IMG/VR virus record: IMGVR_UViG_3300010885_030168
Location: 1-40,432 of that record
Source of the DNA: a virus
Strand: one strand, 5' to 3'
Length of the DNA: 40,432 bases
The notes beneath the pieces are model-generated. The model searched no databases. It had not been told where the DNA came from and saw only the letters and a program-made list of their open reading frames with translations. Positions 1,641 to 13,969 of this stretch are shown here, in pieces. How positions within the stretch are numbered: position 1 is the stretch's first letter; every line of letters begins with the position of its first letter. A program made the translations under genes and the position numbers.

Positions 1641-3092
1641 TTATTTGGTAATACCAGCTAATTGTTTGAGAAGATTAGTTCCTAACTCTTCCATTACACC
1701 ATTACTGTAACTGCCAATTTCTCTGTCAGCAGTGGTGCTTCCGTGGCTGCCGTATCCGTATCCGTATACGCCCATGCGGGGAAATTTGAAATCAGGATTC
1801 CAAGCTGCAATTATGTCTTTTGCTCTTTCAACTTCTTCTTTGCTTTCAAAGTAATAAACATTATTTTGGAATTTAAATTCAAATCCGTTATTTTTTAATA
1901 AATTATCTACATTAGAATCAATTATATCGTTATCAAATTGATCTTCATCATCCCTTGGATTGCTTAATTGATTTGCAAATGGGCTGGGACTCTCATCTTC
2001 TTCTTCGATGTCCTGATTCTGTTGAGCATGTTGTTTATTTTGGACATCGATTGGATTGTCTAATGTTTCCAACATTTCGTTGGCCCATGACTCAAATTCT
2101 TCCCCGACACGATTTTTATATTTGCTATAAGCTTTATACACAACTGGTAACGCATCCATAAGTCTATCATCGAAAATTTTTCTTGTAAAACGTTCTCTCA
2201 GAGAGTTCAAGTCAATTTCATTTTCGTCAATGATTTCAGGTTGCCATAATGTTTTATACTGTTCGTACCCACGTTGACCACGAAGTGTATGTAAATCTCT
2301 GTGCAATCTACCATAATGATCTATTGCACTGTTGACCATTTGAGTAGTTTCCATGTCTTCAAATGTTCGGCCACGCATATTTCTTGTAAATGTTTTAAGT
2401 GCGTTCATTTCACTTAAAAGTTTACTAATATGTTTTCCAAAATCATCATTGAGCTGACCGCCGTTCTTGACATGTCTTGCCAAGGCACGTGCGCCATTTA
2501 TTGTAGTGCCTTCGGGACAACGATAACGTTCCCCAATGGAATTTTCAATGTAGAACGATTCGATATTTCGACTTCTTGCACCAGGAATAGTTTCATCTAC
2601 AATAGGTTTGCTATGGCGAACAATTAGTTTTACATTTTCGAGTTTCTGGTAACTACTTCTGCTTGTTCCGTAAAGTTTACTTTCTGTTACCTTAATATCT
2701 TCTTTATCTAATATTTCTGCATTTTTATTTGCATGTTTCAAATCTCTTAAATTAAGGCCGCTTTTTGCAATATCCCTAACATCGAAACTTAATATATTTC
2801 TTTTTGCAAACAATCTCAATGACTTTAAAAAGTTATACCATACTGTTTTTTCTTCCGAAGACATTTCACTGTCAATGTCTTTGTCAAAGAATACCTTTAA
2901 GTTGTTTGAATCAACCAAACTTATAGTAATATTGCCTAAATTTCTGTCGTTTATGACATAATCAAAATTAAAAAATCTAGCCCGTGTGGGATCTAGTGTG
3001 GCTTTGGCATTTTCATCACCGATGTTTACCGCGTCGAATCGACTGCGAATCTTATCAAATAAATTTTCAGCTACTTTTTCAATTTCTACCAT
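1641..3092 (-). CDS. Unknown protein downstream of the large terminase, probably structural
   Basis: A 483-aa soluble protein with no signal peptide or membrane segment and no enzyme motif I recognise. The middle (about residues 215-330) is charged and helix-rich. About residues 355-400 are very acidic and low complexity (DIEEEDESPSPF). The C-terminus is a Gly/Tyr-rich stretch (YGYGYGSHGS) followed by LLKQLAGITK. The last motif recurs in the 70-aa protein at 5258 (LKLLAGITN). It begins 14 nt after the gp17 stop. The ATG at 3092 has no Shine-Dalgarno sequence and a late-promoter octamer ends 7 nt upstream, so its late mRNA may be nearly leaderless. Position and composition suggest a head-assembly or virion protein, which is inference. 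Confidence 0.75.
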   Translation of the reverse strand: MVEIEKVAENLFDKIRSRFDAVNIGDENAKATLDPTRARFFNFDYVINDRNLGNITISLVDSNNLKVFFDKDIDSEMSSEEKTVWYNFLKSLRLFAKRNILSFDVRDIAKSGLNLRDLKHANKNAEILDKEDIKVTESKLYGTSRSSYQKLENVKLIVRHSKPIVDETIPGARSRNIESFYIENSIGERYRCPEGTTINGARALARHVKNGGQLNDDFGKHISKLLSEMNALKTFTRNMRGRTFEDMETTQMVNSAIDHYGRLHRDLHTLRGQRGYEQYKTLWQPEIIDENEIDLNSLRERFTRKIFDDRLMDALPVVYKAYSKYKNRVGEEFESWANEMLETLDNPIDVQNKQHAQQNQDIEEEDESPSPFANQLSNPRDDEDQFDNDIIDSNVDNLLKNNGFEFKFQNNVYYFESKEEVERAKDIIAAWNPDFKFPRMGVYGYGYGSHGSTTADREIGSYSNGVMEELGTNLLKQLAGITK

Positions 3093-3099
3093 AGTATTA

Positions 3100-3107
3100 T
3101 ATTTATC
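3100..3107 (-). promoter_or_regulatory. T4-type late promoter element, leaderless arrangement
   Basis: GATAAATA on the minus strand, one mismatch to TATAAATA. Seven nucleotides (TAATACT) separate it from the ATG at 3092. With the usual late start point about 6 nt downstream, the RNA would have only about 2 untranslated bases. Confidence 0.55.
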
Positions 3108-4671
3108 AAATCATTATGAAGGGCATAGGCATCAAAATTTCATCGCTAGAATCTTTAAGTTTTTCATCCAAATTGGGATCGAACTCTCGCAAGAACATAG
3201 ACATTCGAACAGCTAACAACATAGCCATTACTAAATCATCTGTTTCTCCTATTTTAGCTGCATAACTGCTTCCAGCTGCTATAAAAGTTTTTAACTCACT
3301 TACCAGTGCTTTACTTGCAATATGTAATTTCCGAGTTTCTACTAGATTTTTAAATTTGGAACAAGCAGATAATTTTGATTTATTAGTTGTTGTGAATCCT
3401 TTTCTATAAGTTCGATTAGATCCTACTTTTTTTGGCTCACTCAAAAATATACCTTTTATATTTTCTTCTCCGTATTCGCTAATTGCTACCAGTGCCGCTT
3501 CACCGAGGGTATTGTTTTCTACACTGTAATAAACGTCATTATTTGATTTTGTAGTTTCCGCTAATGTCTTTGTTATTTCAGATAATATCTTTACCTGTGT
3601 TTGCACCGATGTTTTATTATGTTGCCATTCTGCGATTTGCTTCATGCTGGGCATTTCTAATACCTGGATAGCAGCAGGGTCGCCCCCCGTGCCTAAACTA
3701 GGATCTAGTGCAACTATGTAAACATTTCCTTGTTCTGGTTTTTTATACCAGCGAACCTGCCCTTGTTTAATCAACGGATCTATTCCCGACATTTCAGTTA
3801 AAAAGATAGGGTTAATCAGTGTTTCGTCGTAAATAATAAATTCGCATTCCATTTCTCGACGGAAACGTTCTTCTCCTAATTGGGCACGCATTTCTGCTGC
3901 CCATTTTTCATCCCTGTCAGGATGCTCTTGCCATTTGCTTCTATATGCCCTAAATCCGTTAACGCCTAATGTTGTTTCATTTCCGTATGCATCGACGCAC
4001 TTATTTGCTTGGCGCCAAATTTGTGCAAATTGATCTTCATCGCTGTTTGGTGTACTAGTTATAATGCACTTACCCCCTGTTGCTAAAGTGGGACTGATTG
4101 AAGTCCAAAATTCGCTGGCAATACTGGGTCGTACAAACGCAAACTCATCGCAATACAATAAGGATATACTCATACCACGACCAGTATTTTCTGTTGTGGT
4201 AGCACTTACTATTCGACTACCGTTGTCAAAATCTATACTGCCCTTATTATAACTAGTTACACCTGCTCGAATATAATCCGGGACACTTTCGTATGCATAT
4301 CGGATACGCTGCATAATTTCCTGAGAGCCAGTGTATTTGTGAGCTGCAACAAGAATAGTACTGTCGGGCACAAACATAGCATACCATAACAGATACCCTG
4401 CGGCTGTTGTTGACTTGCCCGTTTGTCGAGGCATCAATGATATTGAATATCTGTAATTATGATACGTTTCTACTAGTCTAGATTGATAATCAAATGGGTG
4501 ATATCGTAATCTTCCTTTGGTAGGATGCTGTATATAAAAATAGTTTTCTAAAAAATACTGAGGACCATTTATCGGATCTGCACATTTAATGACCTCATGA
4601 ATCTGCTCCTCAGTAAACGACTGTTTAACATTTGGTTTTTTAACGAGGACAGATTCTAATGGTTTAGACAT
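3106..4671 (-). CDS. 17: Terminase large subunit gp17 (packaging ATPase and nuclease)
   Basis: The DNA-packaging motor, 521 aa against about 610 in T4. The N-terminal ATPase shows an adenine-binding Q (FDYQ, residue 63), Walker A PRQTGKST (81-88), Walker B LLYCDEF with D175/E176, and coupling motif STPN (206-209). The C-terminal RNase H-fold nuclease supplies the acidic triad D323 (ALDPSLGTGGD), E385 (SVENN) and D478/D479 (ETDDLVMAM). All catalytic residues are in place, so it should be active. It docks on the portal, translocates DNA into the prohead and makes the headful cut. The ATG at 4671 lies about 30 nt downstream of the predicted late start point. In T4 gene 16 adjoins gene 17. Here the small-subunit candidate is 5.5 kb upstream, separated by the core-protein operon and an opposing HNH gene. 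Confidence 0.95.
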   Translation of the reverse strand: MSKPLESVLVKKPNVKQSFTEEQIHEVIKCADPINGPQYFLENYFYIQHPTKGRLRYHPFDYQSRLVETYHNYRYSISLMPRQTGKSTTAAGYLLWYAMFVPDSTILVAAHKYTGSQEIMQRIRYAYESVPDYIRAGVTSYNKGSIDFDNGSRIVSATTTENTGRGMSISLLYCDEFAFVRPSIASEFWTSISPTLATGGKCIITSTPNSDEDQFAQIWRQANKCVDAYGNETTLGVNGFRAYRSKWQEHPDRDEKWAAEMRAQLGEERFRREMECEFIIYDETLINPIFLTEMSGIDPLIKQGQVRWYKKPEQGNVYIVALDPSLGTGGDPAAIQVLEMPSMKQIAEWQHNKTSVQTQVKILSEITKTLAETTKSNNDVYYSVENNTLGEAALVAISEYGEENIKGIFLSEPKKVGSNRTYRKGFTTTNKSKLSACSKFKNLVETRKLHIASKALVSELKTFIAAGSSYAAKIGETDDLVMAMLLAVRMSMFLREFDPNLDEKLKDSSDEILMPMPFIMI

Positions 4672-4736: not shown

Positions 4737-5261
4737 ATGTCTGACGTACTGCTGTTGAATAGCGACTACAATCCAATTTCAGTGTTACCTCTAAGTGTTA
4801 TCGGTTGGCAACATGCTGTCAAACTATATTTCTTGGATCGCATCACTGTGGTTGAAGAATATAAAAACTGGGTAATCCGTAGTGAACATTTCAGCATGAA
4901 TGTGCCCTGTGTTGCAGTTACCAAAGAATATTTTCACTTTAAAAAGTCAGCAAAGTTTTCCCGTAGTAACATGTTCTTGCGCGACATGTACCAATGCCAG
5001 TACTGTAGTGAAGTTTTCGAGCATAAAGAACTTACTCTAGACCACGTAATCCCACGTGCTCAAGGAGGTAAGACTACTTGGGAAAACAGTGTAACAGCTT
5101 GTAAAAATTGTAATCACAAAAAAGGACACAATCTGATTAAACCACTACGCACACCATACAAGCCAGATCACTTCCAATTAATTAAAAAATGGAAGGAACG
5201 GCCTATACAGGTGCGACACGAGAGTTGGTATCAATATTTGGGCATTAAGCCAAAGACTTAG
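4737..5261 (+). CDS. HNH endonuclease
   Basis: A 174-aa protein with a complete HNH module near its C-terminal end: zinc knuckle C87-x2-C90 (CQYC), catalytic LDHVIPR (D102/H103), N117 and second knuckle C122-x2-C125 (CKNCNHKKGHN). The first 75 residues (LLLNSDYNPISVLPLSVIGW) match the arrangement in bacterial and phage HNH proteins of this size. It should nick or cut DNA. It is the only + strand gene between the core operon and gp17, has its own sigma70-type promoter, and its 3' end overlaps the opposing 70-aa gene by 4 nt. It could be a freestanding homing endonuclease or an early nuclease acting on host DNA. HNH genes also sit beside terminases in other phages, where they assist packaging, but gp17 here has its own nuclease. 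Confidence 0.88.
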   Translation: MSDVLLLNSDYNPISVLPLSVIGWQHAVKLYFLDRITVVEEYKNWVIRSEHFSMNVPCVAVTKEYFHFKKSAKFSRSNMFLRDMYQCQYCSEVFEHKELTLDHVIPRAQGGKTTWENSVTACKNCNHKKGHNLIKPLRTPYKPDHFQLIKKWKERPIQVRHESWYQYLGIKPKT

Positions 5262-5470
5262 ATAGGTTTTTCGCCAGTAAGATATGGCCTAGAAAACCAG
5301 AGTTTAAACCAGGCATTCGTGCCTGGTTCTATTTTATGCTTTTTCATAAGTTTAGCTTTTTCTGTGCCAGTATAACTTATGTTACTTTCAGGAACTCCTA
5401 ATTTGTATTCCTGCATCAATGGACGATTAGTAATGCCAGCCAATAGTTTAAGTTGAGCTAGATCGTCCAT
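5258..5470 (-). CDS. Small unknown protein, last gene of the core/internal-protein operon
   Basis: A 70-aa protein starting MDDLAQLKLLAGITN and ending with an aromatic patch (AWFKLWFSRPYLTGEKPI). The LLAGIT motif is shared with the C-terminus of the 483-aa protein (QLAGITK) and resembles RRLAGLKE in the 772-aa protein. The start overlaps the upstream stop (TAATG), so translation is coupled. I do not recognise the family. Context suggests a minor head component. Confidence 0.7.
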   Translation of the reverse strand: MDDLAQLKLLAGITNRPLMQEYKLGVPESNISYTGTEKAKLMKKHKIEPGTNAWFKLWFSRPYLTGEKPI

Positions 5471-5754
5471 TATGTTGTAGTAAACTTAGGGGTCGGCTTT
5501 CCAATCGGCACAGCAGGTTGCTTTACTGTAGGATCGCCGTGTAATATATTCCACGGATGATCAGCAGGCAATTCAAGACCTTTTTGAACTATCGGTGCAG
5601 CCTGTGCAGCTGGATCGTCTTTGATTTTATCGGGTACTGTGATAATACCAGTCTCTGCTTTGCCGCGATTGAAATTCATCGGCGAGCCCGAAGTAGGAGT
5701 TAAATCCACATCAGCATTATCTTCTCGAGTTTTTATTACTTCAAAAATTTTCAT
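5470..5754 (-). CDS. Unknown small protein with a leader partly like a capsid-targeting sequence
   Basis: A 94-aa Pro/Lys/Asp-rich protein, probably largely disordered, with no hydrophobic segment. It begins MKIFEVIKTRED, resembling the neighbouring leaders MKIRDVIVE and MKIKDIILE but without an I/L-x-E site at the same position. The start codon overlaps the upstream stop (ATGA) and the stop overlaps the next start (TAATG). Operon position suggests a prohead core or internal protein, which is inference. Confidence 0.7.
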   Translation of the reverse strand: MKIFEVIKTREDNADVDLTPTSGSPMNFNRGKAETGIITVPDKIKDDPAAQAAPIVQKGLELPADHPWNILHGDPTVKQPAVPIGKPTPKFTTT

Positions 5755-6134
5755 ACACCAAATTTATTTTTCTTTGGTTTAGCTACGGGACTTATTTTAT
5801 TAGTGCTTTTTAATTCCTGACTTTTTAAGTCACCGTGATTTAAATCCTCATAATGAGTGCCTATAGTGTCGAAAGCTTGTTTTAGCATGGCTTGCTCTTC
5901 GCTGGTATAAGGAAAAGCAAGGTTATTTCTGCCTGCCCAAGATTCGGAATCGACATTGATTATTAAAGGATTAACGCCGTCTGCGCCAGCTACAGCCATC
6001 ATAACTCGATTTAGCTCATAGATTCGATCAGCAAATTGTTTATCCCGAAACTTTGTTAATCCAACTGTAGACTGTTGAAGACGTGAGGGTAACTTGCCCA
6101 CTGTATCTTCTAAGATTATATCTTTTATTTTCAT
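5751..6134 (-). CDS. Unknown protein with candidate capsid-targeting leader MKIKDIILE
   Basis: Taken from the ATG at 6134 this is 127 aa. The frame extends 12 codons further upstream to 6170, but the 6134 start forms a TAATG overlap with the preceding gene and produces the same MKIxDxI opening as its neighbours. The leader MKIKDIILE-D resembles the T4 capsid-targeting sequence MKTYQEFIAE-A, which the gp21 protease removes. The rest is a small helical, hydrophilic domain (FRDKQFADRIYELNRVMMAV; YTSEEQAMLKQAFDTIG) with a basic Lys-rich tail. A head-internal protein is the best guess. Confidence 0.7.
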   Translation of the reverse strand: MKIKDIILEDTVGKLPSRLQQSTVGLTKFRDKQFADRIYELNRVMMAVAGADGVNPLIINVDSESWAGRNNLAFPYTSEEQAMLKQAFDTIGTHYEDLNHGDLKSQELKSTNKISPVAKPKKNKFGV

Positions 6135-7189
6135 TACCAAGCTCTGCAAGACCAGTAACGTGCCTTCCAACGTGGGCCTGGATTAGCACAATTGTGACGG
6201 GCCCTAAAACTTTTACGGCGTGCGGGATTAGATTTTTTAATACGCATTTTTTTATCGCCGAAATTAACTTTTACAACATTACCTTTTGGTCCGCGAACAT
6301 AAACTTTAGATTTTTTAACGTCACCTGCCGTCGGCTTACCTAATGCAACTTCCCTACCTTGATATTTTGCTTCTTGCATTTCGTCTGTGCCATATTCATC
6401 AGCAAGTTGTTCTCCCATGATGTCAATGATTTGTTCAAAGTCGTCATCTGGATGTAAACGATTATCTATAGAAATGTTGTCGTACATGTCTTGTAATTTT
6501 TCAGATACATATTTCTCAACTGCATCCTGTGGATTATTCATAACATCATAGATATCCATAGTACCGTTTGCTAAATTTTGAAATACCCCATCAACTTCAG
6601 CCATTCGACCTTCACTTACATCCTGTTGACTTGCACGGGCGATTTGCTGCTGCAATACACGAATATTATCTCTGATTCCTTTTTGCATTGTCCAAAAACT
6701 ATAATCGTCGCTGTATTCGAATGCCGGATCAAATTCTCTTTCCAACTTGGCCAATGCTGCTTTTAGTTGTGGTAAATTTGCTCTGTCTTGAGTCAATGCA
6801 TCTACTTGTGCCTTTTCTCTTTGAGCAGCTAGTATCTTATTGGATCTAGTTTTAGCTCTGGTTAACCCTTGATCCCGACGTTTAGCAATTGCAAGATTCT
6901 TTTCACGATCTTCCGGGCTGGCAGCAAATGCAGCATTCATTTGTGCCATAGCTTTACCCATAGCAGCTTTTTTCTGATACCCACCTAAACTTACTTCTGG
7001 CAAGTTTACACTTTCAAACAAGGCACCACTAATACCTAGTAGAGTCATTGTTTTCTGATCAGCTTCTACTATGACGCCATCTGGCATGAAACCGACAATG
7101 CCAGTTTCGATAACTATATTACCTAATTCGATATCGAAGCTATCGCCTAGTTTAATATTGCTTTCTACAATAACGTCACGTATTTTCAT
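6134..7189 (-). CDS. Probable prohead core/internal protein with targeting-like leader and basic Arg/Trp/Cys tail
   Basis: A 351-aa protein. It begins MKIRDVIVE-S, which fits the T4 gp21 cleavage rule (I/L-x-E before A/G/S). Residues 1-75 form a beta-rich region. About 75-200 is a long charged helix or coiled coil (Ala/Lys/Gln/Glu-rich), typical of scaffold or core proteins. About 205-275 is acidic. The last 60 residues are strongly basic and end KARYWSCRAW, with SFRARHNC just before. I associate this tail with many marine T4-like phage proteins, and it may bind DNA or zinc. The start overlaps the previous stop (ATGA). No enzyme motif is seen. Assignment to the core is from context and leader. 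Confidence 0.72.
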   Translation of the reverse strand: MKIRDVIVESNIKLGDSFDIELGNIVIETGIVGFMPDGVIVEADQKTMTLLGISGALFESVNLPEVSLGGYQKKAAMGKAMAQMNAAFAASPEDREKNLAIAKRRDQGLTRAKTRSNKILAAQREKAQVDALTQDRANLPQLKAALAKLEREFDPAFEYSDDYSFWTMQKGIRDNIRVLQQQIARASQQDVSEGRMAEVDGVFQNLANGTMDIYDVMNNPQDAVEKYVSEKLQDMYDNISIDNRLHPDDDFEQIIDIMGEQLADEYGTDEMQEAKYQGREVALGKPTAGDVKKSKVYVRGPKGNVVKVNFGDKKMRIKKSNPARRKSFRARHNCANPGPRWKARYWSCRAW

Positions 7190-9504
7190 TTTTTTACCTT
7201 AATAGTTTCGTATTCTTTAATCAATTTTAAACTCATACTTTCTTTCATAGCTTGAGGATTGTCACCAAATTGATAACCATCAGGAGTCATTTTCTTTTCT
7301 TTACCAGCCACATCACCGTTGCCACCTTTGGTTTGTACTTGTACAGGCATTACGTGCTCCTCTGGAGTAGTGCTTGCATGATAACGTTCGTCTTTGGCTT
7401 CATCCACTTCCTGCTCTTCTGGAACATCGACTGTCTTCTGTGGAAGTCCTGGGGGTGGAGCTTCTGACGACGTTTGAGTTGCCGGGTTTGAAGTTTCTGG
7501 TTTGGCTGTATTTAATGCATTTTGTTTTGTTAGCTCTTGGCTCTGTTGTTGCCTGCTAGTCATTGCTTGCTGTAATTTTTGCATATCAGCTGGATCTGGT
7601 TGACCGTCAGCTCCTATTTTAGGCAAAGGCATTCTTTCACTTAACTCTTCGTCGTCCCCTGTACTAACAACCATGACACCTTCTGGTTTTTCTTGCGGCA
7701 TGTCACCGCCGGCCATGCCTGCTAGTTTTAGCATTTGCATTAGTTCTAATGCAGAGTTGCCATCAGCTGAAATAGTTACGCTCTTAGTACCGTCGCTGTT
7801 CATATTAGTACTGATATTCATGTTACCTTGACTGTCTTGCATATCTTGTGCGTAGCCAGCAACCGGGCTCATGCCGCATTCTTTCAATCCTGCCAGTCTG
7901 CGGAATAGATTTAAGGATTCAGACACTTTATCATCACACTTGCATTTGCTTTCCAACATGCCGCATTCCATGCACTTAGCCTCATTTACTTCTTCTTCAT
8001 TTTCACGAACTGGTTCCATGTCCCCATCGCCGTCTAAATCTGCTTGCTTTTTACCAGCAGCACGTGCCTTGGCTAGTTGTCCACTGAAATAATTGCCTTC
8101 TTCCATGTCAGCTTCATCAACAGGGACTGGAACAGGTACGCCTTTTTCACCTGACTTAGGAGGTTCACTGGTCCATACTCCGCCTTTAATAGATCCCATT
8201 GGAGGTTCTGGTTCAGATGGTGCGGTTTTTGAAGGTGTTTTTGGAGCAGGAGACACACTTCCGCCATCTATATTTTGCGGAACTGGTACATTAGGTTGTC
8301 CCTTCTTTGGTGGGTTACTAGTCCATACTCCGCCCTGAATACTACCTTCAATAATATCTTTGAAAGTTTCAACAATCATTTTATTAATAGTTGTTGAATC
8401 TTTTGACGCACTTTCAAATTGTGATTTCTTAGGGCGGCCGCGACTACGTTTCACTTGCTCACCATCACTACCCGTTTCTGTTTCACCAGTTTTACGATCG
8501 TAACGACGTGTATGCTTTATACCGCTGGCAGTTTTTTCAATTTCACCTTTAGCACCTTGACGCTTTTCGCCGGTTTTCATGTCGGTATTACGATTAGCCA
8601 CAGCTTTCATCATGTCGTCCCAACCTTCAACAATTTGTTCTTTGGTAAAGCCTGCTTCCATCATAGCTTTTATTGCTTCTTCTACTTTACGTTTATAGTT
8701 CGATTTCTGAATGTTCTTTTTCTTACCGCCCATTTCGTCTTTACCCAACCGGCCAGCAACAACATCACCCCGTGTTACTTTGTCATATGGTTTGGCATTG
8801 TTAGCTAAATTGCCGTCGTTGCCCTCGGGCAATACGCCTTTAGTACCTGCCATTGATTTTGTTTTTAGTCTTTGCTTTGTATCTTGTTGATGTTGTGTTT
8901 TATAATGTGGTGATTCTACTTGGTCAAGGTCCATCATTCTGTCAAAATCATCAGCGGCACGATTTATTCCACGATTTACTCCACGGTTAGATAAGTTAGA
9001 ATATTTGTTTTTTGAATTTTCTTCTGCCACACCTTTACCAAAAGATGTCATTGGCTTTTTGGTGACTGTAGAAGTCTTAGATGGTGTGACTTTAGTTGCC
9101 AGGCTACTCTTCCCTGGTGTTCGACCAACATCAACAACTTCTTTATCACCCTTCTTGAAATGTGGGTTCTTAGCATAAAAATCCTGATGTTGTTTATTCA
9201 TCTTGGAACTATCAATTTCACTTTCTCCCAATTTCTTGCCAGCAGCAGCGGCTTTTTGAAATTTTTCTTTGCCATACTTCTTACGGCCAATCGCAGCAGC
9301 CACAGCTTCAGGATTTTCTGCGCTACCGCCTTTTTTAACAGCGGCCACAGTTTTCTTAAATCCCATGTACTTCTCTGCTAGTACCCGATCCATATTTTCT
9401 TGTAATCGTGTTTTAGCTTTGGGCTGTGTTTGTGTAGCAGGCTGTTGTGGCTCTTGAGCTACTTTATTAAAATTATTTAGAATGTTATAAATGTTATCGC
9501 TCAT
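7186..9504 (-). CDS. Large low-complexity protein of the core operon, with internal repeats
   Basis: 772 aa, Lys/Gly/Glu/Pro/Gln-rich and probably mostly disordered. About residues 35-90 hold a basic Ala/Lys-rich segment (VLAEKYMGFKKTVAAVKK; AIGRKKYGKEKF). A degenerate repeat GGVWTSxPPKxG occurs twice (about 390-410 and 440-460). A Cys cluster C-x2-C-x6-C-x-C (about 508-525) may bind metal and is followed by LFRRLAGLKECGM, related to the LAGI motif of two neighbours. About 545-600 has Met/Asn/Ser-rich strands. It begins 2 nt after the upstream stop. A multi-site scaffold or internal head protein processed by the prohead protease is plausible but not shown. Confidence 0.7.
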   Translation of the reverse strand: MSDNIYNILNNFNKVAQEPQQPATQTQPKAKTRLQENMDRVLAEKYMGFKKTVAAVKKGGSAENPEAVAAAIGRKKYGKEKFQKAAAAGKKLGESEIDSSKMNKQHQDFYAKNPHFKKGDKEVVDVGRTPGKSSLATKVTPSKTSTVTKKPMTSFGKGVAEENSKNKYSNLSNRGVNRGINRAADDFDRMMDLDQVESPHYKTQHQQDTKQRLKTKSMAGTKGVLPEGNDGNLANNAKPYDKVTRGDVVAGRLGKDEMGGKKKNIQKSNYKRKVEEAIKAMMEAGFTKEQIVEGWDDMMKAVANRNTDMKTGEKRQGAKGEIEKTASGIKHTRRYDRKTGETETGSDGEQVKRSRGRPKKSQFESASKDSTTINKMIVETFKDIIEGSIQGGVWTSNPPKKGQPNVPVPQNIDGGSVSPAPKTPSKTAPSEPEPPMGSIKGGVWTSEPPKSGEKGVPVPVPVDEADMEEGNYFSGQLAKARAAGKKQADLDGDGDMEPVRENEEEVNEAKCMECGMLESKCKCDDKVSESLNLFRRLAGLKECGMSPVAGYAQDMQDSQGNMNISTNMNSDGTKSVTISADGNSALELMQMLKLAGMAGGDMPQEKPEGVMVVSTGDDEELSERMPLPKIGADGQPDPADMQKLQQAMTSRQQQSQELTKQNALNTAKPETSNPATQTSSEAPPPGLPQKTVDVPEEQEVDEAKDERYHASTTPEEHVMPVQVQTKGGNGDVAGKEKKMTPDGYQFGDNPQAMKESMSLKLIKEYETIKVKK
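8130..8338 (-). repeat. Intragenic repeat encoding GGVWTSxPPKxG
   Basis: Two related blocks, about 8280-8338 and 8130-8190, each encode Ile-(Gln/Lys)-Gly-Gly-Val-Trp-Thr-Ser-x-Pro-Pro-Lys and then a VPVP segment. They lie in the Pro-rich linker of the 772-aa protein and look like a short internal duplication. Confidence 0.6.
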
Positions 9505-9506
9505 GA

Positions 9507-10151
9507 TTATTTTCCGTTTCCTGCTTTCATACCACGTGGGTTAATTATTTTAGTTTTGTGTGTACCGATTGGACTTGCGCTGCCTTGCGGTAATTCGTTG
9601 GTTGTTTTTGCTACAGGTGTTTTGCCTCCAGCAGTTTCGGGATATTGGTATTTTCTAGTTTCTTCTAATTCTTTAATTAAATTAGGTATACGTGCATCGC
9701 CTACTAGAGCTTCTCCGTCTTTGCCAGGACGTTCTCTTTCCATTTTATCTTGTAGTAATACCGAGTCACCTGGTTTACCACCAATATTACTTTGTTCTAA
9801 ACCTTCTTTGGCAGCTTCATATGGACTATTTTTAGGAGTAACTTTAATACAAGATAAATTAATTCCTGCACGTTCTGCAATCAATACCTTAACTTGTTCG
9901 TCGTTACAAGGATAGTGAAAACTTGCATCCATAATATGAATTTCAACAGGACCCATATTAGGAAATTCTGGATTTTCTTGAATTGGCAAACGTTTAGGTT
10001 TGGTGATAGAATCTAATTTATATGCCTCTAAAACAGTTTTAATTTTTCCTATCAGATCGTCTGGAAGTTCGCAGGCCAATCTGATTCTGAAATCAAACGT
10101 TTTATGACTTTCTGTGAGATAAGCTTTAAACGATTTCATTTTAATTCCCAT
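9507..10151 (-). CDS. Probable internal head protein with candidate capsid-targeting leader MKSFKAYLTE
   Basis: The frame is open from a TTG at 10178, but the plausible starts are ATG 10151 (MGIKMKSF) or ATG 10139 (MKSFKAYLTE-S). MKSFKAYLTE-S matches the T4 capsid-targeting sequence MKTYQEFIAE-A residue by residue in character (K-S/T-aromatic-x-x-aromatic-I/L-x-E) and has a gp21-type site. Residues after the leader form a compact alpha/beta domain of about 100 aa (FDFRIRLACELPDDLIGKIK; EIHIMDASFHYPCNDEQVKVLI). About 100 Pro/Gly/Lys-rich residues follow. A late-promoter octamer ends 7 nt before ATG 10151, favouring that start. It is the first gene of the core operon. Confidence 0.72.
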   Translation of the reverse strand: MGIKMKSFKAYLTESHKTFDFRIRLACELPDDLIGKIKTVLEAYKLDSITKPKRLPIQENPEFPNMGPVEIHIMDASFHYPCNDEQVKVLIAERAGINLSCIKVTPKNSPYEAAKEGLEQSNIGGKPGDSVLLQDKMERERPGKDGEALVGDARIPNLIKELEETRKYQYPETAGGKTPVAKTTNELPQGSASPIGTHKTKIINPRGMKAGNGK

Positions 10152-10158
10152 TATACGA

Positions 10159-10166
10159 TATTTATT
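10159..10166 (-). promoter_or_regulatory. T4-type late promoter element, leaderless arrangement, for the core operon
   Basis: AATAAATA on the minus strand, one mismatch to TATAAATA. The seven bases TCGTATA precede the ATG at 10151, predicting an untranslated leader of about 2 nt. If ATG 10139 is used, the leader is about 14 nt. Confidence 0.55.
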
Positions 10167-10675: not shown

Positions 10676-10683
10676 TATTTACC
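10676..10683 (-). promoter_or_regulatory. Weak late-promoter-like element before probable gp16
   Basis: GGTAAATA on the minus strand has two mismatches to TATAAATA and lies 8 nt before the ATG at 10667, predicting a leader of about 3 nt. It overlaps the last codons of gp4. Confidence 0.3.
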
Positions 10684-11113
10684 GTTTTTTAGTACCAGTA
10701 AAAATATCGGTTTCGTTAACTACTCTGAATGTTAACCCTTGTGCAGCACAGAATTTTCTTGCGGCGTCCCATTTATACATATTAAGAGCTACTGCTGCTT
10801 TATCTCTTATACTCTTTGCAGCTTCCATTGTTGTTTCTTTAGTTGGTTTAACTTCAATCACTTCACCATGTCTTTTACCGTTTTTATCAACATAAATGAT
10901 TAAAAAATCAGGAACATAAATTGTATTTTTTCCAGTAAATGGATTTTTATAATTAACATGAATGGCTTCGCTGGCCCATTGTACTACTGCGGGATTGTTA
11001 TCACAAAATCTCATAAAAGCAAATTCCCAACTTGACCTATATGTCGGTTCTCGCTTTCCAACATATTTGGTAGGATTTTGTACTGTGTATTTTCCCTGAC
11101 TGTACTTGCTCAT
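10679..11113 (-). CDS. 4: Head completion protein gp4 (nuclease-fold)
   Basis: 144 aa against about 150 for T4 gp4. The N-terminal YRSSWEFAFMRFCD, the central YVPDFLIIYVDKNGK, EVIEVKP, and the C-terminal AVALNMYKWDAARKFC and FRVVNETDIF are typical of this family. E30, D69 and E87-x-K89 form the PD-(D/E)xK-type set seen in TnsA-like nucleases. In T4 gp4 is needed to finish DNA-filled heads before tails join and is thought to trim or stabilise the DNA end. The start overlaps the previous stop (ATGA). This is one of the clearest identifications in the window. Confidence 0.88.
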   Translation of the reverse strand: MSKYSQGKYTVQNPTKYVGKREPTYRSSWEFAFMRFCDNNPAVVQWASEAIHVNYKNPFTGKNTIYVPDFLIIYVDKNGKRHGEVIEVKPTKETTMEAAKSIRDKAAVALNMYKWDAARKFCAAQGLTFRVVNETDIFTGTKKR

Positions 11114-11511
11114 GACACTATAGATCTAGTTACATAAGAATTTGTTGTCGGTTGCTGCTTTATTCCAAGATAGCTGGTATTCACTCTAGAAATATTTAGA
11201 TATAAAGCCAGTGCCGCCGATAAGTCTGATGAGGACATGCTTTGAAAAGAACTAAGAACTGTTAACGGATCTTCTCTCTGTGCCTGTGCAGTTTCAATTA
11301 CTGCTTGTACAAGTATTTTTGCACTTTCAATATTATCAGTCTGTTGTTGAAAATAACTCAATATAGCATCATTGATATTTTGATTTAATTCCAAAGAAGG
11401 GTCAAAATAATTGTTAAAATATTTTGTAGTTTTAGTCAATCCCGAACTATTAAGATTTGTTGGGCCTGATACTTGTAATTGACTTAATTGATCCATACTG
11501 TTATTATCCAT
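11110..11511 (-). CDS. Conserved small structural-type protein between the baseplate gene and gp4
   Basis: 133 aa from the ATG at 11511. A GTG at 11520 is in frame, but the ATG has AGGTGA 5 nt upstream, so I prefer it. The helical core (LNQNINDAILSYFQQQ; IESAKILVQAVIETAQAQ; LTVLSSFQSMSSSDLSAALA) is followed by the tail LNISRVNTSYLGIKQQPTTN, a pattern I associate with a small protein found beside gp4 and tail genes in marine T4-like phages. Its function is unknown. It overlaps the upstream stop by 8 nt and the next start by 4 nt, so it is translationally coupled and probably a virion or tail-assembly protein. Confidence 0.7.
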   Translation of the reverse strand: MDNNSMDQLSQLQVSGPTNLNSSGLTKTTKYFNNYFDPSLELNQNINDAILSYFQQQTDNIESAKILVQAVIETAQAQREDPLTVLSSFQSMSSSDLSAALALYLNISRVNTSYLGIKQQPTTNSYVTRSIVS

Positions 11512-13969
11512 CGAAATCACCTAAACTTTGATTATTTTCCCATATAGCTTGATCGCTGGGGCCAGACAAATCAACACCATTGGCCACGTCTTGTGCTACT
11601 ATATCATTTATGCTATCAATTGCGGATTGATTCATTGAGTTCCATTGCTCTTCTGTAAGTGCAGTAGGCTGAAGCGAAGGGTCTCCATAGTATAAGTAGT
11701 CCCCTGAACCAGTATATATTGGATTTCCGCTACCATCTGTCCATAAACCACCATATGGCGCTTCTATAGCAGCCGAGTCTGTATTTTGTCCTGGTGATTT
11801 GTTGAAGAAGCTTAACAGGCCAGTGTCATTTGATCCTGGGGTCAATGTTTCTTTACCATCTGTACTAATAGCGCGAACCGTTCCATCTTTATATACAAAC
11901 AATGAAGACCCGTCATCAAATATTTGTTTAGATACAGTATTATCCAGTGGTGTAGTTGCGTTATATCCGCCCGATCCGGTCCATGTACTTGCAACGTTTC
12001 TAATTTGTCCTGTTGCGGAATCAAATCCCTGTGTTACTGCGCCTGTTGCCTTGTTAATTATAACTTGTAATCCGTTATTAACCGCACGACCTACGGCTGC
12101 TCCTGTTGCTGTAGATACCGCGCCAGACACAACCCGACCAATAACAGAATTTCCTAGACCAGTGTTGTTCAATGCACCATATAAACTTTGGCCAGCATAT
12201 AGCCCTGCCCCAGCGCCGGTTGCTCCGGCAAGAGTATTAGTAAACAATGCAGACGTGCTATTTCCCACAGTATACACTAATCCAGTTGTAGGATCTGTTC
12301 TATACTGAACACTGTTTGCTGGAGACATAACTCCCTGTGCTGCCAGAGTTCGTGAGTCAATTGGATTTGTATTAATATTTTGATTTGGCAATCCTATGAC
12401 GTTATTACTGTTTGAACCTGGAATAACTTGTAAAGTGTTGCCTGTTACTGAATCATACCTGACTTGTGTTCCGTCGCGGTATTGATTAACAATAATTTCT
12501 TGACCTGACGGATCTGTAACTGTTTGTGCATACAATAAATTTTCACTTAAGTTGCTGGGATTATAGCTGCCCGACTGTGTACCAGATACTTGTATTTTGG
12601 ATATTGCATTACCTTGACTATCATAATAAACAGCAGTAGCAGTTCCAGTAACTGGTTGCAGTGAAGAAGCATTTACAATAACCCGACCTGTGTTGTCTAC
12701 TACGTCTGTTACCGCGGTACTACCAACAGTTGCAGGGAATATCCCACTTACTGCATTATTAATTCCGCGATTTATCTGAGAACTTACATAGTTTATTCCA
12801 CCATCTACTGCATTAACAGCAGCACCTGTTACTGCGCCAACAGCACTGCCTGCTATAGTTGCACCAAAATTAGGCACAGTGCTAGCATAAGGATAATTTC
12901 CTATTGCTCCACCGGATACGACTCCTGACCCGTTAATACCAGCAGGGCCGCCGCCTAATGTAGGAAATACATAATTCAATCCTTGATTAACTGCACTGTT
13001 AAGAATACCAACACCCATTGAGCCCAAAGTTGTTCCAACTACCGTTTTGAGATTTACATTTTTTAAATTATTATATAATCTAAACATAGACAATAGACTA
13101 GACAACGGACCGCCGGCACCACTTGATCCATCTGGTTTTCTAAGATCTTTGGGAACTGAATCTAATACACCTAAAAATCCTGCATCTGTGTAGATATTAG
13201 TTACACTAGTGCTAATTGGGCTACTAGCATTATCATAATGTAATAACGAAAAACCGTCTACGCTAACTGGGTTTACAAACCCAGTAAAATATTTGACTGT
13301 TTCATACGCCACCGTCATTTTGTTTTCCATTAAACTTCTATCATTTGAAGAATCATGTTCACCGTGTTGCCAACCTGTTATGATAGGATTAACTAAAAGG
13401 TACTCAGTAAATCGTTTATTGTGTAAACTAAAAATTCTGATATTTTTTATAAAATTCGGTACCGAACTATTTCTTGGGCTATAACCCCACCCAATTTTGT
13501 TTCTTGGCACGTACTTCTCTGGTCGGGAATAATCATTTACATTATAATCACTGTCTCTATAGTAATACGTATAATAATCATTCCAAAAATTTGTAATTAC
13601 ATCTGCTGCATCATCATGAAAAGTAAGATTAACTGGATCATATTGAATATTAGTTTGTACAATATTTTTTCTATTATATGCATTAAGAGTCTTGGTACCT
13701 ATGCTAAATTTTGGTAAGTCAACTCTTTTAACTAACATCCCAGTTTCTAAATTTTGAAATCTATCAGCAAAACTTAAAACTCCCCCAAGAAATCCACTAC
13801 CCAATTGAGTTTGGCTTGGATCTATATTAATTACAACATAATATAAAAAACTTTGCTTGGGTGCTAATCTATATGTATCTGCAACAAACAATTTAGTTGC
13901 ATGATCATACGGATGTGTGAACGTCCCTTTAGCTAAAGGTTTTAAATCAGCGTTATATAATGAGGCCAT
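11504..13969 (-). CDS. Tube-like baseplate protein (gp48/gp54 type) with long Gly/Ala-rich C-terminal extension
   Basis: 821 aa. Residues about 40-235 have tail-tube-fold features (FLYYVVINID; GMLVKRVDLPKFSIGTKTLN; IQYDPVNLTFHDD; KMTVAYETVKYFTGFV) as in T4 gp19-related tube initiator and cap proteins gp54 and gp48. From about 285 the protein turns Gly/Ala/Ser/Asn-rich with hydrophobic runs. Three stretches share the pattern A-V-N/D-x-G-L/I-x-V (about 326-334, 386-394, 629-637), interleaved with beta-rich RHS-like text (VYYDSQGNAISKIQVSG). T4 gp48 and gp54 are far shorter, so the extension is unusual and may reach into the tube lumen or act in tape-measure or membrane contact. Which of gp48 or gp54 it replaces cannot be decided. 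Its late promoter ends 5 nt before the ATG and no Shine-Dalgarno sequence is seen. Confidence 0.72.
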   Translation of the reverse strand: MASLYNADLKPLAKGTFTHPYDHATKLFVADTYRLAPKQSFLYYVVINIDPSQTQLGSGFLGGVLSFADRFQNLETGMLVKRVDLPKFSIGTKTLNAYNRKNIVQTNIQYDPVNLTFHDDAADVITNFWNDYYTYYYRDSDYNVNDYSRPEKYVPRNKIGWGYSPRNSSVPNFIKNIRIFSLHNKRFTEYLLVNPIITGWQHGEHDSSNDRSLMENKMTVAYETVKYFTGFVNPVSVDGFSLLHYDNASSPISTSVTNIYTDAGFLGVLDSVPKDLRKPDGSSGAGGPLSSLLSMFRLYNNLKNVNLKTVVGTTLGSMGVGILNSAVNQGLNYVFPTLGGGPAGINGSGVVSGGAIGNYPYASTVPNFGATIAGSAVGAVTGAAVNAVDGGINYVSSQINRGINNAVSGIFPATVGSTAVTDVVDNTGRVIVNASSLQPVTGTATAVYYDSQGNAISKIQVSGTQSGSYNPSNLSENLLYAQTVTDPSGQEIIVNQYRDGTQVRYDSVTGNTLQVIPGSNSNNVIGLPNQNINTNPIDSRTLAAQGVMSPANSVQYRTDPTTGLVYTVGNSTSALFTNTLAGATGAGAGLYAGQSLYGALNNTGLGNSVIGRVVSGAVSTATGAAVGRAVNNGLQVIINKATGAVTQGFDSATGQIRNVASTWTGSGGYNATTPLDNTVSKQIFDDGSSLFVYKDGTVRAISTDGKETLTPGSNDTGLLSFFNKSPGQNTDSAAIEAPYGGLWTDGSGNPIYTGSGDYLYYGDPSLQPTALTEEQWNSMNQSAIDSINDIVAQDVANGVDLSGPSDQAIWENNQSLGDFDG
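12050..13040 (-). repeat. Repeated Gly/Ala-rich hydrophobic segments inside the baseplate protein
   Basis: Three divergent copies of A-V-N/D-x-G-L/I-x-V, preceded by glycine-zipper-like runs (GSMGVGILNS; GSAVGAVTGAAV; VSGAVSTATGAAVG). They look like internally duplicated units, seen at protein rather than DNA level. Confidence 0.5.

Follow-up and report, generated by a model that had tools for sequence, protein, structure and literature searches.

Three genes (A, B and C) in a late head-gene cassette of a PA5oct-related jumbo phage of the T4 superfamily probably carry functional propeptides of 9 or 10 residues that resemble the T4 capsid-targeting sequence (CTS) and would act as it does in T4, a reading to which we assign a probability of roughly 0.84. 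Each protein would be docked on the scaffold core of the prohead by the hydrophobic face of its leader and then enclosed by the growing shell, and a gp21-type protease would cut after [I/L]-x-E, the mature protein staying in the head among the DNA. We infer docking, cleavage and packaging in this phage from sequence, and the CTS reading for A, B and C follows from conservation at the positions mapped in T4, the sharing of leaders by unrelated bodies, the protease found in relatives, an LxE site in their capsid protein and the virion proteomics of related phages.

Genomic context and organization of the cassette

The window analysed here is the entire IMG/VR record IMGVR_UViG_3300010885_030168 (40,432 bases), which is a fragment of a T4-superfamily jumbo phage. 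The nearest cultured relatives of its terminase large subunit (TerL) are PA5oct, MIJ3 and Paride (56% identity), followed by Phosso and Atu_ph07, and no near DNA matches to the window were found among cultured phages. On the minus strand, the genes for the tail sheath, the tail tube, a second tube-like protein, a gp4-like protein and a 162-aa protein are followed by A, a 772-aa protein, B, C, D and a 70-aa protein (Table 1), beyond which come an HNH gene on the plus strand, TerL, a virion-type protein of 483 aa and SSB. PA5oct shows the same gene order, and the two of its proteins that occupy the places of A and the 772-aa protein were detected by mass spectrometry (MS). The HNH endonuclease gene (window 4737-5261), which sits on the other strand in the gap separating the cassette from TerL, is possibly a homing element, and other genes occupy the same site in some relatives. 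An 821-aa tail-tube-like protein (window 11504-13969) combines an N-terminal tube domain with a long repetitive extension.

Table 1. Positions of the cassette genes and of neighbouring features in the window
Feature	Coordinates	Strand	Remarks
Gene A, 210 aa	9507..10139	-	leader MKSFKAYLTE-S, 10-residue form, T4 register
Leader of A	10110..10139	-	predicted cut after E10
772-aa repetitive protein	7186..9504	-	without a CTS-like leader
Gene B, 351 aa	6134..7189	-	leader MKIRDVIVE-S, 9-residue form
Gene C, 127 aa	5751..6134	-	leader MKIKDIILE-D, 9-residue form
Gene D, 94-aa orphan	5470..5754	-	leader-like MKIFEVIKTRED (MKIFEVIKTRE-D), without I/L-x-E
70-aa protein MDDLAQLKLLAGI	5258..5470	-	no CTS-like leader; kept beside the cassette in 74 loci
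Terminase large subunit (TerL)	3106..4671	-	downstream border of the cassette
gp4-like head closure protein	10679..11113	-	upstream border of the cassette
ATAAATA	10159..10165	-	20 nt upstream of gene A

The motif ATAAATA, the core of the T4 late promoter, occurs ten times in the window, and eight of these sites precede a gene start by no more than 40 nt (P = 1e-12). Since no ATAAATA site exists between A and the 70-aa gene, it is likely that this whole stretch is expressed as a single late transcript. The original prediction had placed four leaders on genes of one cassette, and all four are indeed present. The proposed coupling of these genes was likewise confirmed, with ATGA overlaps at the junctions of the 772-aa gene with B and of C with D, and TAATG at those of B with C and of D with the 70-aa gene; A and the 772-aa gene are spaced 2 nt apart. 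Translation of the first gene had been assumed to begin at 10151, but position 10139 is the most likely start, because a GGGA lies a few nucleotides 5' of that ATG and the leader itself is the part conserved in relatives.

The idea that T4-type targeting leaders are carried by a co-transcribed set of genes is well supported for A, B and C, but not for D. Only the first two leaders had been considered to fit the I/L-x-E processing motif; both do, but the count was too low, as the third (I-L-E) fits too, whereas D does not. Hydrophobic residues are kept in D at the T4 targeting positions (F4 and I7) and the processing motif is missing, so that at most uncleaved targeting may be predicted for this protein. 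AF2 models of two proteins gave a lower confidence for the leader than for the body (63 versus 81-88 and 66 versus about 82), and in the model of A the leader forms a helix at residues 4-10 with lower confidence than the body, as expected for a removable extension. Some relatives of the 772-aa protein do carry a leader (for example MKKLTDYIAEAE in L081), and the PA5oct protein detected at its position is EST35_0203.

Conservation of the leaders and the experimental map of T4

Scans of IMG/VR yielded 103 loci that hold a relative of TerL or of A. Almost everywhere, the A leader keeps the form MKxFxx[Y/H][L/I]xE; among 37 aligned homologs, positions 2, 4, 7, 8 and 10 are conserved, with F4 in 93% and Y or H at position 7 in 100%, and the residues in between vary. 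Within positions 3-11, the set 4, 7, 8 and 10 is the most conserved (rank 1 of 126 four-position sets; 37 sequences). Amber-suppression tests on T4 IPIII have assigned targeting to residues 4 and 7 and processing to residues 8 and 10 (PMC9026906), in exact agreement with the positions conserved in A. In the C family (54 aligned sequences), the leader persists as MKIx[E/D]I[I/V]xE, with E9 at about 96%, and residues 12-40 are hypervariable (mean entropy 2.64 versus 1.61 bits). This 9-residue form preserves the T4 spacing when counted backwards from the glutamate, and only by this count do the hydrophobic targeting positions of B and C match those of T4. Overall, the leader glutamate and the I/L/V two residues before it rank with the most conserved positions, and the one they enclose ranks with the most variable.

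The CTS of T4 IPII and IPIII (MKTYQEFIAE-A, cut by gp21; residues -10 to -1 of IPIII are marked as a removed leader in GenBank X04567) resembles the leader of A in its length, the aromatic residues at positions 4 and 7, the I/L at position 8 and the glutamate at position 10. Both systems also have leaders common to unrelated bodies, a gp21-type protease (here in relatives) and exchangeable cargo. Compared with T4, the cassette family adds the 9-residue form and a location of the cargo between gp4 and TerL, its bodies are unrelated to the T4 internal proteins, and its cleavage is predicted. Head proteins of phiKZ and SPN3US are likewise cut after glutamate by a prohead protease, but there the rules are S-x-E and A-x-E, respectively, and the propeptides are mostly much longer (PMC5694885), unlike the cassette leaders.

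Distribution of leader-like N-termini

Two patterns, T1 (M[KR].[FLYM]..[YHF][LIFVM].E) and T2 (M[KR]..[DEQSTN][ILVF][ILVM].E), were composed with the A, B and C families in view, and hence independent testing comes from T4 and the cyanophages. In the window, they match 3 of 279 Met starts, all three inside the cassette. Across eight larger jumbo-phage contigs, the window and PA5oct, 21 of the 33 matches fall in the gp4-TerL cassette where 2.7 were expected (exact P = 7e-17, a value that overstates independence, since related families recur between genomes), and of the 122 unique matches in the loci covered by that count, 109 come from families A, B and C. As a positive control, only ipII, ipIII and gp61.1 matched among the 1326 Met starts of T4, and the scan of pelagiphage HTVC008M gave no matches. 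Against the cassette reading, none of the five matches in a 354-kb relative (G001) falls within the cassette span as defined, and three of them form part of another cluster.

At 130-136 kb of G001 (L123 16407-17142, L124 1412-3367) there is a second cluster of proteins with 9-residue leaders; one of them has a metalloprotease-like HELTH motif, another is a DUF6321 protein, and a third is 651 aa long. In T4, the hypothetical protein gp61.1 (54 aa; NC_000866 18966-19130) begins MKTFKEFIKED, a perfect CTS-like leader, and its gene adjoins that of primase gp61; tagged cyanophage genes are likewise found within the gp41-gp61 interval.

Protease and probable capsid cleavage site

No gp21-type protease (PF03420) was detected in the 40-kb window, an absence that is uninformative because gp20 and gp23 are missing from this fragment too. 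The same profile, which detects T4 gp21, found the protease in 9 of 14 larger relatives, namely PA5oct, Phosso, Atu_ph07, CBB and five of ten larger IMG/VR contigs; four of the five contigs lacking it were checked (one only partly), and gp20 and gp23 were likewise not found there. In the major capsid protein of relatives, LAE, FLVE or LKE precedes NASAG and aligns at the FLTE-A site of T4. Given this LxE at the T4 position, the leaders and the capsid protein of these relatives would appear to obey one cleavage rule.

Bodies of the putative cargo

When the bodies were clustered without their first 15 residues, they fell into unrelated families with leaders in common. Within family B, near relatives have MKIRDVIVE-like leaders and others MKTFRDYLSE-, MKTLHDYISE- or MKNLRDYIVE-like ones on alignable bodies. 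C occurs as tandem paralogs in many loci, and relatives of D were found nowhere searched; in two contigs with 98% identical TerL, an empty junction (GTGTA/TAATGGA) occupies the place where D sits in the window. T-even internal proteins have little in common except the CTS (PMC3012670), and the shared and swapped leaders, the paralogs of C and the presence or absence of D are the behaviour of exchangeable cargo of that kind. Cargo bodies therefore appear to be gained, lost, duplicated and re-tagged between phages.

Searches of Pfam, PHROGs, NCBIfam and PADLOC assigned no function to the tagged bodies. Membership of these bodies in the T4 IPI, IPII, IPIII or Alt families was considered and rejected, as no PHROGs, Pfam or NCBIfam match to these families was obtained. 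A gave a weak fold match to Ip7 of phage MX01 (E 2e-3), and its fold search pointed to a ferredoxin-like core; the PDB matches (ribosomal protein S6, HPPK) were generic and scored low, and we draw no function from them. No cultured homologs of C were found. The C-terminal module of B (KSFRARHNC...ARYWSC; window 6134-6380) is conserved, with dozens of invariant residues and no Pfam match, and occurs also in pelagiphages, roseophages and flavophages, the copy in C48C1 lying behind the T1-like leader MKKFKQYIDE. Cassette proteins that are otherwise unrelated share a further motif, L-x-x-L-A-G-[ILVM], which is found (window 5258-5470, 7186-9504 and 1641-3092; L034, L036, L081 and L083) at ~14 times the per-residue frequency of other long ORFs of the same genomes, many of the occurrences being supplied by the 70-aa family. 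It may represent a second docking or sorting motif.

Virion proteins of related phages

The PA5oct protein at the position of A, EST35_0202, is its homolog and was MS-detected in virions, but unlike A it has no glutamate at position 10. This residue is missing from the homologs of A in the cultured phages PA5oct (MKSFRDYYDAS) and Phosso (MKNFYEYLSS) alike, suggesting either that cleavage is not universal or that those phages differ. PA5oct EST35_0150, encoded between portal and protease (the position of gp67 in T4), starts with the 9-residue leader MKINDIITE-G, like B and C, and is present in the virion; a peptide starting at its predicted cut would read GYYNPADDSSAIAHK. The expectation that PA5oct MS would cover all pattern matches was not borne out, as one of three is in the list and two are absent.

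Enzymes of cyanophages, namely the GC190 cytidylyltransferase and the SAM hydrolase, APH-like kinase and Cas9-like nuclease of S-CREM2, have a T4-register MKxFxxFLxE at or near the N-terminus. Their bodies and genome position differ from those of the cassette, and they have been MS-detected in virions. The core protein T4-GC190, experimentally detected in cyanophage virions (PMC3037559), starts MK[K/S]FxAFLxEA in 44 of 44 distinct sequences, with positions 4, 7, 8, 10 and 11 invariant and position 9 the most variable. The virion proteins of S-CREM2 have been published (PMC10665884). Among its 217 annotated proteins, the T4-spaced motif, written after the virion-positive N-termini had been viewed, is found at the start of six, five of which are in virions versus 45 of the 211 others (Fisher P = 0.003). 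T1 gave three genome matches, 3/3 in virions, a smaller but cleaner test, since this pattern had been fixed earlier. The leaders are MKDFDSFLEE in the SAM hydrolase, MKNFSSFLTE in the cytidylyltransferase and VKRFDAFLTE (GTG start) in the kinase, and the nuclease has FASFMAE-A about 20 residues in. Peptides starting at the predicted cut would read FDRDQESLEESSLSR in ORF6, ADEKQQQAPK in ORF154 and EETEAHK in ORF14. The authors of that work left undecided whether these enzymes are cargo or contamination (PMC10665884); the leader in common favours the view that they would be cargo.

Alternative explanations

An improbable, though the least improbable, alternative to the propeptide reading is that the leaders target the prohead core but mostly stay uncut, acting as permanent docking helices in which the glutamate is kept for helix or salt-bridge reasons. 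EST35_0202 does reach virions without the glutamate, D retains F4 and I7 only, and in T4 an Asp at position 10 stops processing and leaves targeting intact (PMC9026906). However, a conserved E and I/L/V separated by a variable residue is the pattern expected of a protease site rather than of a helix face, and the capsid protein conserves the identical LxE site.

We regard as very unlikely a placement of A, B and C on the outside of the virion or in its neck or tail, in which the leader would direct assembly there or at the connector rather than into the head interior. The genes for gp4, tail tube and sheath are nearby and whole-virion MS lists cannot tell inside from outside, but the same leader form is borne by the prohead protein at the gp67 position, the T4-register form is found on soluble enzymes of cyanophage virions, and highly variable bodies together with one orphan gene are unlike neck proteins. 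That the likeness is an accident of AT-rich gene starts (MK, hydrophobics and Glu) is scarcely credible: genes that begin with MK are frequent in AT-rich phages and the leaders were already known when the patterns were composed, yet chance N-termini were rejected in view of the T4 hit rate (3/1326, two of them known internal proteins), the fixed-position conservation over 37-54 homologs and the clustering of 21 of 33 matches in the cassette.

Implications

The mechanism proposed for the A, B and C propeptides is itself already known from T4. According to the literature searched, the new elements are the 9-residue form, the placing of a cargo cassette between gp4 and TerL in a large clade of uncultured phages, the exchange of leaders and the signal on cyanophage virion enzymes. 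To our knowledge, these enzymes have not been described as CTS-tagged so far, and our literature search combining the capsid-targeting sequence with cyanophages or huge phages returned a single T4 review (subscription papers lay outside its scope). We incline, with some reserve, to the broader view that the CTS is an address code across the T4 superfamily (PA5oct-like jumbo phages, cyanophages and their kin), marking a large and for the most part unrecognised set of head-packaged and probably injected proteins and swapped freely between bodies; this set would include a SAM hydrolase, a kinase, a Cas9-like nuclease, nucleotidyltransferases and a metalloprotease-like protein.

The jumbo-phage group with the tagged cassette is known mostly from water samples. 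In jumbo phages and cyanophages alike, it is a long-standing question which of the phage proteins reach the cell interior together with the DNA, and it matters because early defence and takeover can hinge on them. A sequence signal predicting head cargo would turn hypothetical proteins into candidates and would offer a reason for the presence of enzymes in cyanophage virions, while the leaders themselves may provide new short targeting peptides to try in T4-like capsids.
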